Both the position numbers and the translations under genes were made by a program. This document shows, piece after piece, positions 1,716-19,163 of a stretch of 21,774 nucleotides of DNA. How positions within the stretch are numbered: the stretch's first letter is position 1; each line of letters begins with the position of its first letter. Source of the stretch: a virus; the IMG/VR virus record IMGVR_UViG_3300025093_000144, positions 1 to 21,774 of that record, one strand, 5' to 3'. The notes below the pieces were generated by a model. It was not told the origin of the DNA and did no database searches. It saw only the letters and a program-made list of their open reading frames with translations.

Positions 1716-1721
1716 GAGGTG
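1716..1721 (+). promoter_or_regulatory. Ribosome binding site that fixes the capsid start
   Basis: GAGGTG lies 6 nt before ATG 1728. A GTG at 1719 is in the same frame but overlaps this site, so ATG 1728 is the better start. It gives an N-terminus MASAASN, like the MAS start of T7 gp10. Confidence 0.75.
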
Positions 1722-1727
1722 AATAAG

Positions 1728-2846
1728 ATGGCTTCAGCCGCTTCAAATCCAGCCTATAGCGTAAGCTTTCAAGGCCAAAATAACCTCACAGGTGACGTTC
1801 GTGACCTCTTTCTTAAGCTGTATGCTGGAGAGGTTCTGACTGCCTTTGAGGAAAAGAAAGTCCTTATGGATAAAGTGCGTACTCGTACTATTTCCAAAGG
1901 TAAATCCGCATCATTTCCAATGACAGGACGTGCATCAGCAGAGTACCTGACCCCTGGAAATGAGATTACTGGTGGAGCAATTCGTGCAGGTGAACGCATT
2001 GTTTCCATTGATGATTTGCTGATTAGCTCTCAGTTTATCGCAAACATTGACGAAGCAATTAACCACTACGATGTTCGTTCAATCTACTCTAAGGAAGCTG
2101 GTATTGCACTAGCTAACGAAGCAGATAAGAACGTAGCTCGTATGCTTGTTAAAGCTGCTCTGTCAACTAATGCTACACGTGCTGCTGGTCTTATCCAAGA
2201 CTATAAAGCTTTTTCTGAAGAAGACTTTACAGATAACGTGATTATTGGCGATAACGCTGCTGATGACCTTGTTGCAACTGACCTTGCACAAGCTATCTTC
2301 AATGCGAAGAAAGAGTTTGAGAAGAAAAACATACCTACTGATGGTGCTTGTGTTGTTCTTCCACCTGACCAGTACTACGCTCTGCTAGATGTTACTGATG
2401 GTAATAAGCTGGTCTACATGAACAGAGACTTTGGCGGCAATGGTTCTATTTCAAATGCAGTAGTACCAAATATTGCTGGTATGCCTGTTCTGATGTCAAA
2501 CCATGTTGACGTAACTAACCTGTATGTGAACTTTACTGGTGGTGACGCTAACGAAGGTAAGACTTCCGACAATGCACCACTAGCTAATACTGCTGGTTCA
2601 GGCCGCACTACTCACTATGACCTACCTACTGCTAACGTAGATAGCGTAGACATGGTGGCTCTCGCAGCACGTATTCGTGGCTTTGTCTTTACTCCTGATG
2701 CTGTAGCTACAGTCAAGCTTCTTGACTTGGGTATGGAATCTGAGTACCAGATTAATCGTCAGGGTACACTGATGGTTGCTAAGTACGCAATGGGACACAA
2801 CGTCCTACGTCCTGCTTCTGCGATTGCTCTTCTTGAGTACGCCTAA
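1728..2846 (+). CDS. Major capsid protein, T7 gp10-like
   Basis: This protein forms the icosahedral shell (HK97 fold in this family). The 372 residues are close to T7 gp10A (345 aa). Recognisable gp10 features are the early FLKLYAGEVLTAFEEKKVLM segment, the TRTISKGKSASFPMTGRA strand, a PGNEI loop, and the late AARIRGFVFTPDAVATVKLL segment. Codon use leans to GCT, ACT, CGT and GGT, more strongly biased than the internal core genes, as expected for the most abundant virion protein. It has its own leader upstream and a terminator downstream, so its dose can be set apart from its neighbours. I see no good slippery site for a T7 gp10B-type extension. Confidence 0.96.
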   Translation: MASAASNPAYSVSFQGQNNLTGDVRDLFLKLYAGEVLTAFEEKKVLMDKVRTRTISKGKSASFPMTGRASAEYLTPGNEITGGAIRAGERIVSIDDLLISSQFIANIDEAINHYDVRSIYSKEAGIALANEADKNVARMLVKAALSTNATRAAGLIQDYKAFSEEDFTDNVIIGDNAADDLVATDLAQAIFNAKKEFEKKNIPTDGACVVLPPDQYYALLDVTDGNKLVYMNRDFGGNGSISNAVVPNIAGMPVLMSNHVDVTNLYVNFTGGDANEGKTSDNAPLANTAGSGRTTHYDLPTANVDSVDMVALAARIRGFVFTPDAVATVKLLDLGMESEYQINRQGTLMVAKYAMGHNVLRPASAIALLEYA

Positions 2847-2859
2847 GTAGATTAGGGAG

Positions 2860-2890
2860 AGGGAGAGGTTTCTAGAGCCTCTCTCTTTTT
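2860..2890 (+). terminator. Strong terminator after the capsid gene
   Basis: A nine-pair stem (2860-2868 with 2878-2886, one G-T wobble) encloses a 9-nt loop and runs into TTTTT (2886-2890). It sits 13 nt past the capsid stop, exactly where T7 has its T-phi late terminator after gene 10. Genes downstream would then be transcribed by read-through. Confidence 0.82.
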
Positions 2891-2896
2891 ATTATC

Positions 2897-3091
2897 ATGG
2901 AAAAATTAAAAGTTAAAAAGAAGTCTCGTGTAAACGAGGCAGGTAATTATACAAAACCTACAATGCGTAAGCGACTTTTTAATCAAATTAAAGCTGGCAC
3001 AAAAGGCGGTAACGCTGGTCAATGGTCAGCAAGAAAAGCTCAGTTGCTTGCGTCACGCTATCGTAAAGCAGGTGGGGGCTATACAACATGA
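2897..3091 (+). CDS. Small very basic protein; resembles N-terminal half of a KGG...GQWSARKAQ family
   Basis: 64 residues with about 17 Lys/Arg against 2 Glu. The core NYTKPTMRKRLFNQIKAGTK, then GGNAGQWSARKAQLL and GGGY, matches from memory a widespread short family (probably DUF5872) in bacteria, marine phages and algal viruses. There it is followed in the same chain by a W-T-K...W segment. Here that second half is the next gene, in the -1 frame. The start follows the capsid terminator by 6 nt and has no visible Shine-Dalgarno, so expression should be low or depend on read-through and structure. Function is unknown; DNA or RNA binding is inferred only from charge. Confidence 0.8.
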   Translation: MEKLKVKKKSRVNEAGNYTKPTMRKRLFNQIKAGTKGGNAGQWSARKAQLLASRYRKAGGGYTT

Positions 3092-3324
3092 GGCCGCCAC
3101 AGCAAAGTTTAAAGAATTGGACAAAGCAAAAATGGCGAACAAAATCTGGAAAGAAATCCTCTGTAACTGGAGAAAGGTACTTGCCTTCAGCAGCCATAAA
3201 AAGTTTGAGTGCTGCGGAGTATGCGGCAACAACAAAGGCTAAACGAGAAGGTAAGCGTAAAGGCAAACAGCATGTGCGCCAACCATTAAAAATTGCAAAG
3301 AAAACTAGACAGTATAGGACTTAA
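3088..3324 (+). CDS. Small very basic protein; resembles C-terminal half of the same family
   Basis: 78 residues with about 23 Lys/Arg against 3 Glu. The motifs LKNWTKQKWRTKSGK, GERYLPSAAI and AEYAATTKAKREGKRKGKQ are those that follow GQWSARKAQ...GGGY in single-chain members of the family (from memory). The ATG overlaps the preceding stop (ATGA at 3088-3091), with an AGGTGGGGG purine stretch about 9 nt upstream, so it is translationally coupled. The frame is open upstream back to 3067, so a -1 shift in or after the G run at 3074-3078 would fuse both halves. No catalytic motif is visible. Confidence 0.8.
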   Translation: MRPPQQSLKNWTKQKWRTKSGKKSSVTGERYLPSAAIKSLSAAEYAATTKAKREGKRKGKQHVRQPLKIAKKTRQYRT

Positions 3325-3326
3325 TT

Positions 3327-3446
3327 ATGCCAAATGTAGCAGGTAAAAAATATTCGTACACAAAAGCAGGTATGGCTGCGGCTAAGAAAGAAGCTGAAAA
3401 GACAGGCAAACCTATGATTAACAAGTATAAAAAGAAGAAGAAGTAA
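3327..3446 (+). CDS. 39-residue lysine-rich phage protein
   Basis: A very short ORF beginning MPNVAGKKYSYTKAGMAAAK and ending in five Lys; 13 Lys against 2 Glu. Short proteins with this MP-V-GKK-Y-YT-KG-AAAKK pattern recur, from memory, in marine phages of several families near structural genes, so I consider it real despite its size. AGGA lies about 7 nt before the ATG, and the ORF fills exactly the gap between its neighbours (2 nt after one stop, 1 nt before the next start). Function is unknown; nucleic-acid binding or capsid association is inference. Confidence 0.75.
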   Translation: MPNVAGKKYSYTKAGMAAAKKEAEKTGKPMINKYKKKKK

Positions 3447-3447
3447 C

Positions 3448-3705
3448 ATGACCATAGAGCGTGGTGGACACACATTTAAAGGTTTACGTATTCCAATCAG
3501 AACGCCTAATCATAAAACAAAGTCCCATGCTGTTCTTATTGGCACAAGAAAAAAACCTATACTAAAAAGATTTGGAGAACAAGGCGCAAAAACTAACCAG
3601 AACGAACAACAGCGTAAGGACTTCAAAAGAAGACACGCCAAGAACATAGCCAAAGGTGAGACCAGTGCAGCTTATTGGGCTAACAAGGTGAAGTGGCAAG
3701 CATAA
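3448..3705 (+). CDS. Small basic protein ending in the SAAYWANKVKW motif
   Basis: 85 residues with about 21 Lys/Arg against 5 acidic. It contains HAVLIGTRKKPILKRFGEQG followed by FKRRHAKNIAKGETSAAYWA and NKVKW. Proteins with RFG-QG and FKARH-KNI-KG-SAAYWANKVKW are common, from memory, in marine phages including T4-like, T7-like and pelagiphage genomes; their function is unknown. It is the last of four consecutive basic micro-genes between capsid and tail tube genes. Upstream purines (GAAGAAGAAG) could act as a weak ribosome binding site. Confidence 0.8.
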   Translation: MTIERGGHTFKGLRIPIRTPNHKTKSHAVLIGTRKKPILKRFGEQGAKTNQNEQQRKDFKRRHAKNIAKGETSAAYWANKVKWQA

Positions 3706-3716
3706 GGTAAAACAAA

Positions 3717-4301
3717 ATGGCAACAACAACCCAACTAGATGCAGTAAACACTATGCTCTCTGCGATAGGTGAAGCACCTGTCAACAGCCTTTCCTCTGGT
3801 TTGGTTGAAGCCGAAATAGCAGAGACTATACTTAACACTGTAGACAGAGAAGTGCAGTCAATGGGCTGGCACTTTAACACAGAACTAAATAAATCTTTTG
3901 CACCAGATACTAGTGGAAACATAATACTAGGTACAGACATCCTACGTGCTGATGCTACACTAGAAGCAGAAAGCCCTGACTTAGTTCAGCGTGGCTTAAA
4001 AATGTATGACAGAAAAAACCATACGTTTAACATTGGAGCAAACACAAACTTAGATGTAGTGGTTCAATTAACTTTCAATGATTTGCCTGAGGTAGCTAAA
4101 AGATATATTACACTCAGAGCAACAAGAATATTTCAAGACCGTATTGTTGGGTCTAATACTCTTCACGACTTTCAGATACGTGATGAAGAACGAGCAATGT
4201 TTGAACTCAAAGAGTTTGACAAGGCTGCTGATGACCACAACATATTTGATAACTATGATACATTTAGTATTATTGATAGGCAGGGTAGGAGAACTTTCTA
4301 A
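3717..4301 (+). CDS. Tail tubular protein A, T7 gp11-like
   Basis: The T7 gp11 homologue (adaptor/gatekeeper) forms the dodecameric ring joining portal to nozzle. The 194 residues match T7 gp11 (196 aa). The N-terminus QLDAVNTMLSAIGEAPVNSL corresponds to the T7 motif LSAVNDILASIGEPPVSTL, followed by an ILNTVDREVQSMGWHFN segment also conserved in T7. The C-terminal half shows LPEVAKRYITLRATRIFQDR, the helical region typical of the family. The stop overlaps the next ATG by one base (TAATG), suggesting coupled translation with the nozzle protein. Confidence 0.95.
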   Translation: MATTTQLDAVNTMLSAIGEAPVNSLSSGLVEAEIAETILNTVDREVQSMGWHFNTELNKSFAPDTSGNIILGTDILRADATLEAESPDLVQRGLKMYDRKNHTFNIGANTNLDVVVQLTFNDLPEVAKRYITLRATRIFQDRIVGSNTLHDFQIRDEERAMFELKEFDKAADDHNIFDNYDTFSIIDRQGRRTF

Positions 4302-6637
4302 TGGCACTCATCAGTCAATCTATCCCCAACCTTATCAATGGGGTATCTCAACAGCCACCTTCTCTACGCCTAAACACACAGGCAGAGTTACAAGAGAATG
4401 GATTGTCTAGTGTAGTATCAGGCTTGTCTAAACGTCCTAGCACACAGCATGTGGCTGACTTAGGAACTATATCTAATCTTGACAAAGCATTTATACATAC
4501 TATTCGTAGAGATGAGAATGAGTTTTATTCTCTAGTGATTGACACAGCAGGTACTATTCGTGTGTTTGATAAAGATGGTACATCTCGTACTGTTACTAAC
4601 AACGCATCTTCTTATCTGAATGGATTGACTGACCCTAGCCAAGAACTAGCGGCAGTGTCTATTGCTGATGCTACCTTTATTGTAAATAAAAACACTACAG
4701 TAGCCAAAGCTGCTACGACATCACCTACACGTAATCCAGAAGCTCTAGTATATGTTAAGCAAGCTGATTATTCTTCTACCTATCGACTAGTAATTACCAA
4801 AGGTTCTAGTACTAGTACTGTAGAATTTGCTACAAAGTCTAGTACACAAAGTAGCACAGGAGCCGCACAAAACGCAGAACGTGGCGCATCAACTGATATT
4901 ATTGCACAAAATTTAAGTACGTTTTCTAGTTCAACAGTAGCCACGAGTTATTATGATAGCATTACAAATGGCTCTGCTGTTACTGGCATCACAATTACTC
5001 GTTATGGTTCTGTACTACATATTCAATCTACTGACACTACAGACTTCCAAGTAGAGGTAGGTGATTCGCATGGTGGAGACCACTTACTCGTATTTAAAGA
5101 TGAAACACCTGATTTTAAAAAACTACCTGTAGAATCTCCAAATGATTTTGTCATAAAAGTGGCAGGTGATAATCAGAAAGCACAAGACGATTTCTATGTT
5201 AAATTTAGTGATGGGGTGTGGAAAGAAACGGTAGAGCCTAATATTCTAATTAATTTAGATGCTGCTACAATGCCGCACAAACTAACTAAAGATGCAAGTG
5301 CTAACTTTACTTTTGATGTAGCAACTTACACAGAAAGAAAAGTAGGCGATGATGCTACTAACCCCTTCCCATCCTTTGAAGGATTTACTATTGCAGATAT
5401 ATTCTTTCATCGTAATAGATTGGGATTACTAGCAGATGAAAATGTAATCTTATCTCGTGCAGGTGAGTTTTTATCATTTGATTTCTTTCGTAAGTCAGTA
5501 CTAACAGTTGTAGATAGTGACCCCATTGACGTGGCTGTGTCCTCTAACAAAGTTAGTATACTTAAACATGCTGTACCATTTAACGAAGCACTATTGCTCT
5601 TCTCTGACTTAACACAGTTCAAGCTAACAGGAGACCCTGTACTTACACCAGAGACTGTAAACGTAGCTAACACCACAGAGTTTGAGGCATCACTACGAGC
5701 TAAACCAGCACAGGCTGGTAAGTATGTATACTTTGCTTCTAAGCGTGGTGCTTGGTCTGGTATGTGGGAATACTTTGTAGATACTGACACAGATACTAAT
5801 GATGCTAGTGAGATTACAGCACACGTACCTGAGTACATTGATGGTGAAATAACAAACATTCAAGCATCTTCCAACGAAGACATGCTTATACTACAAGCCT
5901 CTGACGATGCACAGGCGTTCTACGTATATAGATACTACTGGCAAGGTAGAGAAAAACTACAAGCATCTTGGTCACGATGGGTATTTGATGGTGATGTTAT
6001 AGGTCTATCATTTAACAGAGCAGATATCTACCTACTAATTAAACGAGGTACTAATTTATTTTTAGAACGTATTAACCTATCAGTAGATGAGGCAGCTTCC
6101 TATACAGATGGCGGCTTTTCTATACACCTAGATAGACGAGTACAACTAGAAACATCAGGACTAACTACTGTACCATACACAGATAGTAATACTAAGTATA
6201 TTGCACAAGATGGTAGCATAATAACTTTGTCGGCTGTAGCAGGTAAACTATCTGCTGGTGAAAAAGTATATGCTGGTGTACCATTTACATTTAAATACCA
6301 GTTCTCTGAACCTGTACCTAAGATAAATAACAATCCTGTTACTACAGCAGACCTACGTATTCGTAACTGGTCTGTAGTTTACAATGACACAGGTTTCTTT
6401 ACTGTTAAGAGTACACCTGCTAGACGTACTACTTACACACGTACCTTTACAGGACGTATAGTAGGTGGTGCTACTAACTTACTAAACAAAGCTGCTATTG
6501 ATAGTGGTACTTACGAGTTTGGTGTAGTAGGTAACTCAGATACAGAGATAGTACTAGAAAGTGATAATCACCTTCCTTGCGTTTTCCAAAGCGCAGAGTG
6601 GGAAGGGTTCTATACACTACGTTCAAGGAGAATGTAA
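4301..6637 (+). CDS. Tail tubular protein B (nozzle), T7 gp12-like
   Basis: gp12 forms the hexameric nozzle at the tail tip and, with gp11, the fibre attachment site. The 778 residues compare with 794 in T7. The N-terminus MALISQSIPNLINGVSQQPP is the family signature, followed by LRLNTQAELQENG and LSKRPST. A mid-protein FHRNRLGLLADENVILSRAG segment and IDVAVSSNKVSILKHAVPFN are also typical of gp12-type nozzles. The rest is beta-rich with many short Gly/Thr/Ser turns. The gene is coupled at both ends by one-base TAATG overlaps (4299-4303 and 6635-6639). Confidence 0.95.
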   Translation: MALISQSIPNLINGVSQQPPSLRLNTQAELQENGLSSVVSGLSKRPSTQHVADLGTISNLDKAFIHTIRRDENEFYSLVIDTAGTIRVFDKDGTSRTVTNNASSYLNGLTDPSQELAAVSIADATFIVNKNTTVAKAATTSPTRNPEALVYVKQADYSSTYRLVITKGSSTSTVEFATKSSTQSSTGAAQNAERGASTDIIAQNLSTFSSSTVATSYYDSITNGSAVTGITITRYGSVLHIQSTDTTDFQVEVGDSHGGDHLLVFKDETPDFKKLPVESPNDFVIKVAGDNQKAQDDFYVKFSDGVWKETVEPNILINLDAATMPHKLTKDASANFTFDVATYTERKVGDDATNPFPSFEGFTIADIFFHRNRLGLLADENVILSRAGEFLSFDFFRKSVLTVVDSDPIDVAVSSNKVSILKHAVPFNEALLLFSDLTQFKLTGDPVLTPETVNVANTTEFEASLRAKPAQAGKYVYFASKRGAWSGMWEYFVDTDTDTNDASEITAHVPEYIDGEITNIQASSNEDMLILQASDDAQAFYVYRYYWQGREKLQASWSRWVFDGDVIGLSFNRADIYLLIKRGTNLFLERINLSVDEAASYTDGGFSIHLDRRVQLETSGLTTVPYTDSNTKYIAQDGSIITLSAVAGKLSAGEKVYAGVPFTFKYQFSEPVPKINNNPVTTADLRIRNWSVVYNDTGFFTVKSTPARRTTYTRTFTGRIVGGATNLLNKAAIDSGTYEFGVVGNSDTEIVLESDNHLPCVFQSAEWEGFYTLRSRRM

Positions 6638-7098
6638 TGAAGGGTCATGTGAGGAAGAGTACTCAAGCTGACGTTGATTGGTTAAAACATAATCTAAGAC
6701 CAGAGGACGCAGAAGAAGTTACAGCCTCACATGGTAGCCCTGAACAAGCATTACAAGAAAGTTTTGACCACTCTGAAGAATGTTGGACAATTATTGTTGA
6801 CGATACAGAAGAGATAGCAGGAATGTATGGTGTATGTAAAGAAGACAATATGACAGGAGTTGTGTGGCTTCTTACTTCTCCACCTATAACAAAGATATGG
6901 CTACCTTTCCTACGTGGTTCACGTAAGTGGGTGGCAGAAATAAACAAGAAGTACCCCCTACTAACAAACGCTGTAGATGCAGAGTATAAGGTAGCTATTA
7001 ATTGGCTAAAATTTGTAGGCTTTACATTTATTAAACGACATGAGACATGGGGAGTGGGTAACAAACCCTTCTTAGAATTTGTGAGGATACAAGAATGA
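6637..7098 (+). CDS. T7 gp13-like protein with GNAT-like (DUF2833-type) fold
   Basis: In T7, gp13 is needed for virion assembly near the internal core genes but is not clearly a mature virion protein. This 153-residue homologue shares the gp13 plan: an N-terminal R-x-(S/T)-x-x-D helix start, a central hydrophobic strand (ECWTIIV), a VVWLLTS strand, and a C-terminal NWLKFVGFTFI segment typical of GNAT-like folds (T7: RFLKTIGAVFHEEY). I see no clear acetyl-CoA loop (Q/R-x-x-G-x-G/A), so catalysis is doubtful. An in-frame upstream start exists at 6577, but ATG 6637 has AAGGAG at 6625-6630 and overlaps the gp12 stop by one base, so I choose it. Confidence 0.75.
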   Translation: MKGHVRKSTQADVDWLKHNLRPEDAEEVTASHGSPEQALQESFDHSEECWTIIVDDTEEIAGMYGVCKEDNMTGVVWLLTSPPITKIWLPFLRGSRKWVAEINKKYPLLTNAVDAEYKVAINWLKFVGFTFIKRHETWGVGNKPFLEFVRIQE

Positions 7099-18704: not shown

Positions 18705-19163
18705 GTGTTAGCTGAATTAGCAGCTTGTAATGCCGCCTTTGCTATTATAAAACAAACTCTGAGTAATGGACGTGAGTTGGTTGATTGTAGTAAAGCTATA
18801 ACAGACTTTGTTACAGCAAAGGATACTCTTCAGAAAAAAGCGCATAAGAAGAAAAACTCGTTTTGGAATAAGGTAGGCGGTAGTGCTGGCGATGACTTAG
18901 AAGAGTTTATGGCACTTGAAAAGGTACGTAAACAAGAGAACCAGCTACGTGAAACTATGCAGCTTTATGGACGTGCTGGTCTTTGGCAAGATTGGATTAA
19001 GTTTCAAGCTGAAGCAAGAAAACGCAGACAATTAGAACAAGAAGAAAGAATAAAGAAACGAAAAAAATTGATAGAGCTTTTGACCATATCAGGATTAACA
19101 ATAGTGTTTGGAGCTTTAGTATTGTATTTTGCGTTCTTTTTCTACCTAGCAACGAGAGGATAA
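18705..19163 (+). CDS. Unknown 152-residue protein with C-terminal membrane anchor
   Basis: GTG start 3 nt after the holin stop, with AAGGAAAG at 18691-18698 as ribosome binding site. Residues 1-45 are a helical Ala-rich segment (LAELAACNAAFAIIKQTLSN, then GRELVDCSKAITDFV). A basic stretch KKAHKKKN follows, then an acidic helix (DDLEEFMALEKVRKQE), the segment YGRAGLWQDWIKFQAEARKR, a very charged coiled coil, and a membrane helix at about 124-149. Similar proteins occur in marine podoviruses and cyanophages (from memory), without known function. It lies in the lysis module, but the large domain precedes the membrane segment, opposite to an i-spanin, so it would be a tail-anchored cytoplasmic protein. 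A structural role cannot be excluded. Confidence 0.8.
   Translation: MLAELAACNAAFAIIKQTLSNGRELVDCSKAITDFVTAKDTLQKKAHKKKNSFWNKVGGSAGDDLEEFMALEKVRKQENQLRETMQLYGRAGLWQDWIKFQAEARKRRQLEQEERIKKRKKLIELLTISGLTIVFGALVLYFAFFFYLATRG

Follow-up and report, generated by a model that had tools for sequence, protein, structure and literature searches.

What might four very basic micro-proteins, encoded one after another between the capsid and tail genes of a T7-like virus, be doing there, and do they work together? The question is raised by a 21,774-base virus record of IMG/VR, the whole of which was analysed and is called the window here. Its structural module is T7-like, with the portal C-terminus, scaffold, capsid, P1 to P4 and tail tube A in that order, and further tail and internal virion genes 3' of tail tube A. 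As originally predicted, the block lies behind a capsid terminator and before the tail genes: the RNA of 2843-2897 folds into a hairpin of -23.2 kcal/mol (z -3.7) with a U run at its end; a consensus terminator scan did not pick it up. P1 starts a few bases 3' of this U run, with no obvious Shine-Dalgarno sequence, and its gene overlaps that of P2 by an ATGA. On recount, the lengths and the charges of the four proteins (K+R minus D+E) are exactly those that had been predicted. Their pI values are 10.2-11.4, while none of the other listed window proteins exceeds +9 or pI 9.7, most being acidic or near neutral.

Table 1. Features of the capsid-tail interval of the window and its boundaries
Feature	Position	Strand	Basis
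Major capsid protein (T7 gp10A-like)	1719..2846	+	Pfam Gp10A-like 3e-59; PHROG 267 major head protein
Intrinsic terminator-like hairpin, 3' of capsid gene	2856..2890	+	RNA fold of 2843-2897
P1, 64 aa, +15	2897..3091	+	phrog_17747
P2, 78 aa, +20	3088..3324	+	phrog_14910
P3, 39 aa, +11, Lys-rich	3327..3446	+	phrog_33179
P4, 85 aa, +16	3448..3705	+	phrog_7595
Tail tubular protein A, downstream block boundary	3717..4301	+	Pfam Tube 9e-51

The four proteins match their PHROG families over nearly their full length (3.4e-35 for P1, 1.4e-36 for P2, 1.8e-10 for P3 and 4.4e-23 for P4), and all four families are of unknown function, in keeping with the claim that each protein is a recurrent type without an assigned role. 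All four are under purifying selection, with median dN/dS values in the window's clade of 0.07 for P1, 0.07 for P2, 0.24 for P3 and 0.15 for P4, as compared with 0.11 for the major capsid protein. They are therefore real genes rather than chance ORFs. P1 and P2 are constrained at least as tightly as the capsid, which favours specific contacts that go beyond charge alone. Two further features of the window lie outside the block. The scaffold-capsid gap (1535-1718) holds a second terminator-like hairpin at 1549-1565, AGGGGGTTTGTCCCCCT, and the T7 gp13-like slot (6577-7098) gives a match to an internal virion protein profile (2e-38) and a weak one to acetyltransferases.

Conservation within the clade was assessed on fetched capsid-related contigs, 79 loci of which contain both capsid and tail tube A (one being a self-copy of the window). 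P4 is found in 76 of these intervals, P3 in 56 and P1-P2 together in 23, and the order is invariably P1-P2-P3-P4. P1-P2 is missing from 56/79 loci and is thus dispensable. In three contigs (L204, L206 and L207), the P4 slot is occupied by a different basic protein (88 aa, +18) of the DUF6321 family (3.9e-16). Five P4 relatives also match DUF6321 weakly, and the two kinds of protein may be distantly related. The P3 slot of some contigs contains other Lys-rich mini-proteins, one of them DUF6496-like, below the cut-off. Within the clade, therefore, P4 is almost always present, P1-P2 forms a cassette that can be removed, and substitutes are likewise basic. Two clade intervals (L169 and L178) also contain an extra 74-aa protein and a 146-aa protein resembling the product of the window gene at 18705-19163, which suggests that a late gene was relocated. 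A further locus (L326, contig CACGIE010000014.1) shares 97.4% identity with the window across 7.1 kb and has the same P1-P2-P3-P4 block. It comes from a single-cell genome with the label 'Candidatus Poseidoniales archaeon AG-422-I18', where infection, adsorption or co-sorting would explain its presence equally well.

Outside the clade we sampled 227 loci, which fall into 55 lineage groups by shared neighbours, the largest comprising 125 loci. P2 accompanies P1 in 144 of the 145 loci with P1, in every case (144/144) downstream on the same strand, and the two lie less than 1 kb apart in 132 loci from 32 lineage groups. Outside the window's clade, then, P1 and P2 are an obligate pair with a fixed order. 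Moreover, P1 and P2 form a single chain in 13 phage contigs (among them L135, L158 and L152, the last with a fusion of 130 aa) and in bacteria, where 29 loci from groups such as Bacteroidota, Myxococcota and SAR11 encode such a chain. P1 is N-terminal in most bacterial fusions and P2 in those of Pelagibacteraceae; because both domain orders exist, fusion or rearrangement must have occurred at least twice. Both orders, together with recurrence across many bacterial groups, led us to reject missed stop codons as an explanation. When aligned to the cellular fusion proteins with hhalign, P1 corresponds to the first half (9.6e-27) and P2 to the second (3.1e-23). Among the cellular two-domain proteins, 11/31 match DUF5872 (best 5e-7); window P1 and P2 alone give no DUF5872 match in Pfam, and their homologues include one marginal member each.

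The two-domain gene was found in 19/60, 14/59 and 13/99 sampled genomes of three bacterial families, a patchy spread that identifies it as an accessory chromosomal gene. Its cellular neighbours include no consistent partner; two of them are S30AE hibernation factors. One of the cellular proteins has at its end a Rho_N domain and a SAP match under the threshold, and several bear Lys/Ala/Pro-rich tails. In other phages, the neighbours of P1-P2 in a PHROG scan, run without a matched background, are terminase, endolysin and late genes of unknown function. A 454-aa protein (L052:5761-7122) has P2 as its N-terminus, and a segment towards its C-terminus is similar to tape-measure proteins of Klebsiella phages. 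In HMO-2011 (L003), P1 and P2 flank an auxiliary gene, whose annotation is methanesulfonate monooxygenase alpha subunit, and other small ORFs.

P4 is tied to this pair in two ways. P1 and P4 co-occur in 66 loci outside the clade, invariably on the same strand and in both orders, and they are less than 1 kb apart in 42 of these, against 16.3 expected from random placement within the same locus (p 2.4e-11; the loci are not all independent, and by lineage group the count is 10/14). In addition, P2 and P4 form a single chain in 18 contigs, all from one phage lineage. Missed stops were again rejected, as the P4 start codon is absent at some junctions (three fusions have no Met there). P1, P2 and P4 are thus joined by domain fusions despite their unrelated-looking sequences; the description of the four as unrelated-looking is right for sequence and misses these links. 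P3 is tied to the block by position alone: a tblastn search with it gave no match, and its spread was judged within the fetched loci. The idea of a shared system is therefore partly supported, for P1, P2 and P4 through pairing, clustering and fusion and for P3 by position alone. Independent, random placement in other genomes, which the original prediction had named as refuting such a system, is not what we see. Conservation of the block as a unit, in contrast, did not hold up. Gene order is permuted elsewhere, as in one locus with a contiguous P3-P4-P1-P2 (L086), and since order and membership vary between loci, we rejected a fixed four-gene operon. The exact block of the window is one arrangement among several.

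As for P4, its relatives lead to a known viral family. DUF5754 (PF19058), also called Tlr6F, is matched by 27/82 P4 relatives (E<=0.1, best 4e-11), one homologue (L048) scoring 38.6 bits against a cut-off of 27.4. Window P4 falls under the Pfam gathering score, and we therefore call it a distant relative rather than a Pfam member. Its AF2 model (pLDDT 93.1) predicts a small domain with a β-hairpin sheet followed by helices. In BFVD, the model matches an XkdF protein, a ChaB protein, ICP1 ORF125 and a marseillevirus protein, and it superposes on a Tunisvirus protein with a TM of 0.61 and an rmsd of 2.4. Foldseek and VIA-align searches of the PDB with P4 and P2 (AF2 pLDDT 92.8 for the latter) gave no credible match, which we do not take as a sign of a new fold, and profile searches against solved structures gave nothing useful for any of the four proteins. 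A Protoglobin match of P4 (0.08) was rejected, being under its cut-off.

The match to XkdF and ICP1 ORF125 is borne out by sequence, since P4 domain and protease occur in one chain. Gp125 of the Vibrio phage ICP1 has a Peptidase_S78_2 domain at 36-160 (3.5e-10) and a P4 domain at 184-261 (1.3e-11), whereas in phiA009_0107 of an Aeromonas phage the order is reversed, with the P4 domain at 75-150 (2e-11) and Peptidase_S78_2 at 175-289 (1.7e-11). Gp125 is a predicted procapsid protease, predicted to degrade scaffold (PMC9040626, PMC7567579). Its gene lies in the order TerL-portal-gp126-protease-scaffold-decoration-coat. Procapsid proteases work within the procapsid, and the P4 domain that they carry therefore likely works there as well. 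The phrog_220 profile, 'minor head protein and DNA pilot', likewise aligns with the P4 region in each of the two proteins (9e-10). Window P4, at 85 aa, has no protease domain, and none was found in the window head module.

The neighbourhood of P4 elsewhere was examined by a PHROG scan of 145 representatives. Terminase large and small subunits, portal, head-tail adaptor and scaffold occupy the top ranks, along with head morphogenesis proteins, followed by endolysin and ParB-like proteins; the scan had no matched background, and late genes make up much of any phage genome. Other contexts exist. In Melnitz phages the P4 domain sits on a cytidyltransferase-like protein, as at the C-terminus (2e-16) of a 650-aa protein of Methylophilales phage Melnitz-3 (L409:1273-3222), and in HTVC106P P4 adjoins lysis genes rather than head genes. 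Because of these two cases, P4 may be a general nucleic-acid tag.

Together, these findings lead us to favour tentatively, at somewhat less than an even chance, that P1, P2 and P4, probably with P3 as an accessory, form one late nucleic-acid-binding system of the phage head. That they form one system is suggested by the P1-P2 pairing, the P1-P2 fusions in both orders and the P2-P4 fusions. Nucleic-acid binding is suggested by the extreme charge and by the Rho_N and sub-threshold SAP matches on one cellular homologue. The head is suggested by the position of P4 between capsid and tail tube in 76/79 clade loci, by its proximity to terminase, portal and scaffold genes and by its presence on prohead proteases. 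P1 and P2 would act jointly, being the two parts of a basic protein that is a single polypeptide in many bacteria. P4, stand-alone here and an extra domain of procapsid proteases elsewhere, would associate with the head or head DNA. The proteins would bind DNA during packaging or at the portal, would neutralise charge within or at the head, and may exit together with the DNA. DNA binding, virion presence and condensation by P1-P4 are what we infer. Of the roles that the original prediction had listed, those in the head are favoured, P4 being found with head and packaging genes and on a capsid protease; condensation, ejection and assembly fit this evidence alike.

The main rival, which we consider somewhat unlikely, places the same biochemical activity in the cell, with replicated DNA or the packaging motor as its target. 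P1-P4 would then be late nucleic-acid binders that are no part of the virion and that coat replicated DNA, aid terminase or displace host nucleoid proteins. Such a role would suit the frequent adjacency of P4 to terminase genes and of P1-P2 to terminase or endolysin, the fusion of P4 to a cytidyltransferase-like protein, and the chromosomal two-domain version in three bacterial families, where no virion is involved. The P4 domain on two prohead proteases, the 'minor head protein and DNA pilot' profile and the location of P4 inside the capsid-tail interval of nearly all clade loci nevertheless point to the head. Charge and size would equally suit proteins that bind mRNA or ribosomes and tune translation late in infection, since small ribosomal proteins are similar in both, and the Rho_N match and the two S30AE neighbours of cellular homologues could be read in the same way. 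We regard this as highly improbable: no ribosomal fold or sequence match was found for P1-P4, the genes beside them in phages serve the head, packaging and lysis rather than translation, and the fusion of P4 to a protease would be left unexplained.

It could also be that there is no system to explain, and that the site behind the capsid terminator merely tolerates small accessory genes whose functions differ and which share only their charge. The variable slots, with Lys-rich substitutes for P3, DUF6321 for P4 in three contigs and P1-P2 as an optional cassette, are what such a site would produce. However, the obligate order of P1-P2, the P1-P2 and P2-P4 fusions, the clustering of P1 and P4 in other phages (p 2e-11) and the constraint on P1 and P2, which equals or exceeds that on the capsid, make independence quite improbable. 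At the other extreme, P4/Tlr6F could be a head-targeting or genome-binding module of tailed phages, polinton-like viruses, virophages and giant viruses alike, with P1-P2-P4 a co-packaged chromatin-like system exchanged, in either direction, with bacterial chromosomes; we hold this broader proposal, taken as a whole, to be unlikely.

P1-P4 can be compared with several described groups of proteins. T4 internal head proteins are small, basic and encoded with head genes. P1-P4 resemble them in size, charge and head-gene context, and we know of no sequence relation between the two sets. Cultured carriers include CRP-13, HMO-2011 and CRP-4; our literature search found no usable virion proteome of a carrier phage. 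Like the DUF5872 (PF19197) two-domain proteins, P1 and P2 are consecutive halves, but those proteins are one chain whereas the window has two overlapping genes. With the XkdF-type prohead protease (ICP1 gp125), the window shares the P4 domain, which here stands alone. Tlr6F/DUF5754 of polinton-like viruses, virophages and Nucleocytoviricota is shared with P4 relatives and, at the cut-off, not with window P4. The family, to which no function has been assigned, is described as conserved in polinton-like viruses, where it is reported to be near-universal, as well as in giant viruses, virophages and some phages (PMC4642659, PMC12220804); an earlier report placed it in 'some poorly characterized phages' (PMC4642659). 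CpV-BQ1 encodes both DUF5754 and DUF5872 proteins (PMC12085832). We found no earlier literature tying the Tlr6F family to prohead proteases or to P1-P2.

The families of P1-P4 are thus already catalogued, and Tlr6F is already on record in phages. Within the scope searched, three findings appear to be new: fusions link P1, P2 and P4 to one another; P1 and P2 correspond to the two parts of a bacterial two-domain protein; and the P4 domain is fused to proteases, which offers a testable head role for Tlr6F. The presence of P4 on capsid-maturation proteases and in the capsid-tail interval is the first concrete functional lead for Tlr6F noted here. Fusion also links a Tlr6F relative to P1-P2, a pair that bacterial chromosomes encode too and that algal viruses may share (CpV-BQ1). 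In this way four 'hypothetical proteins', abundantly represented in marine viromes, become one testable system.
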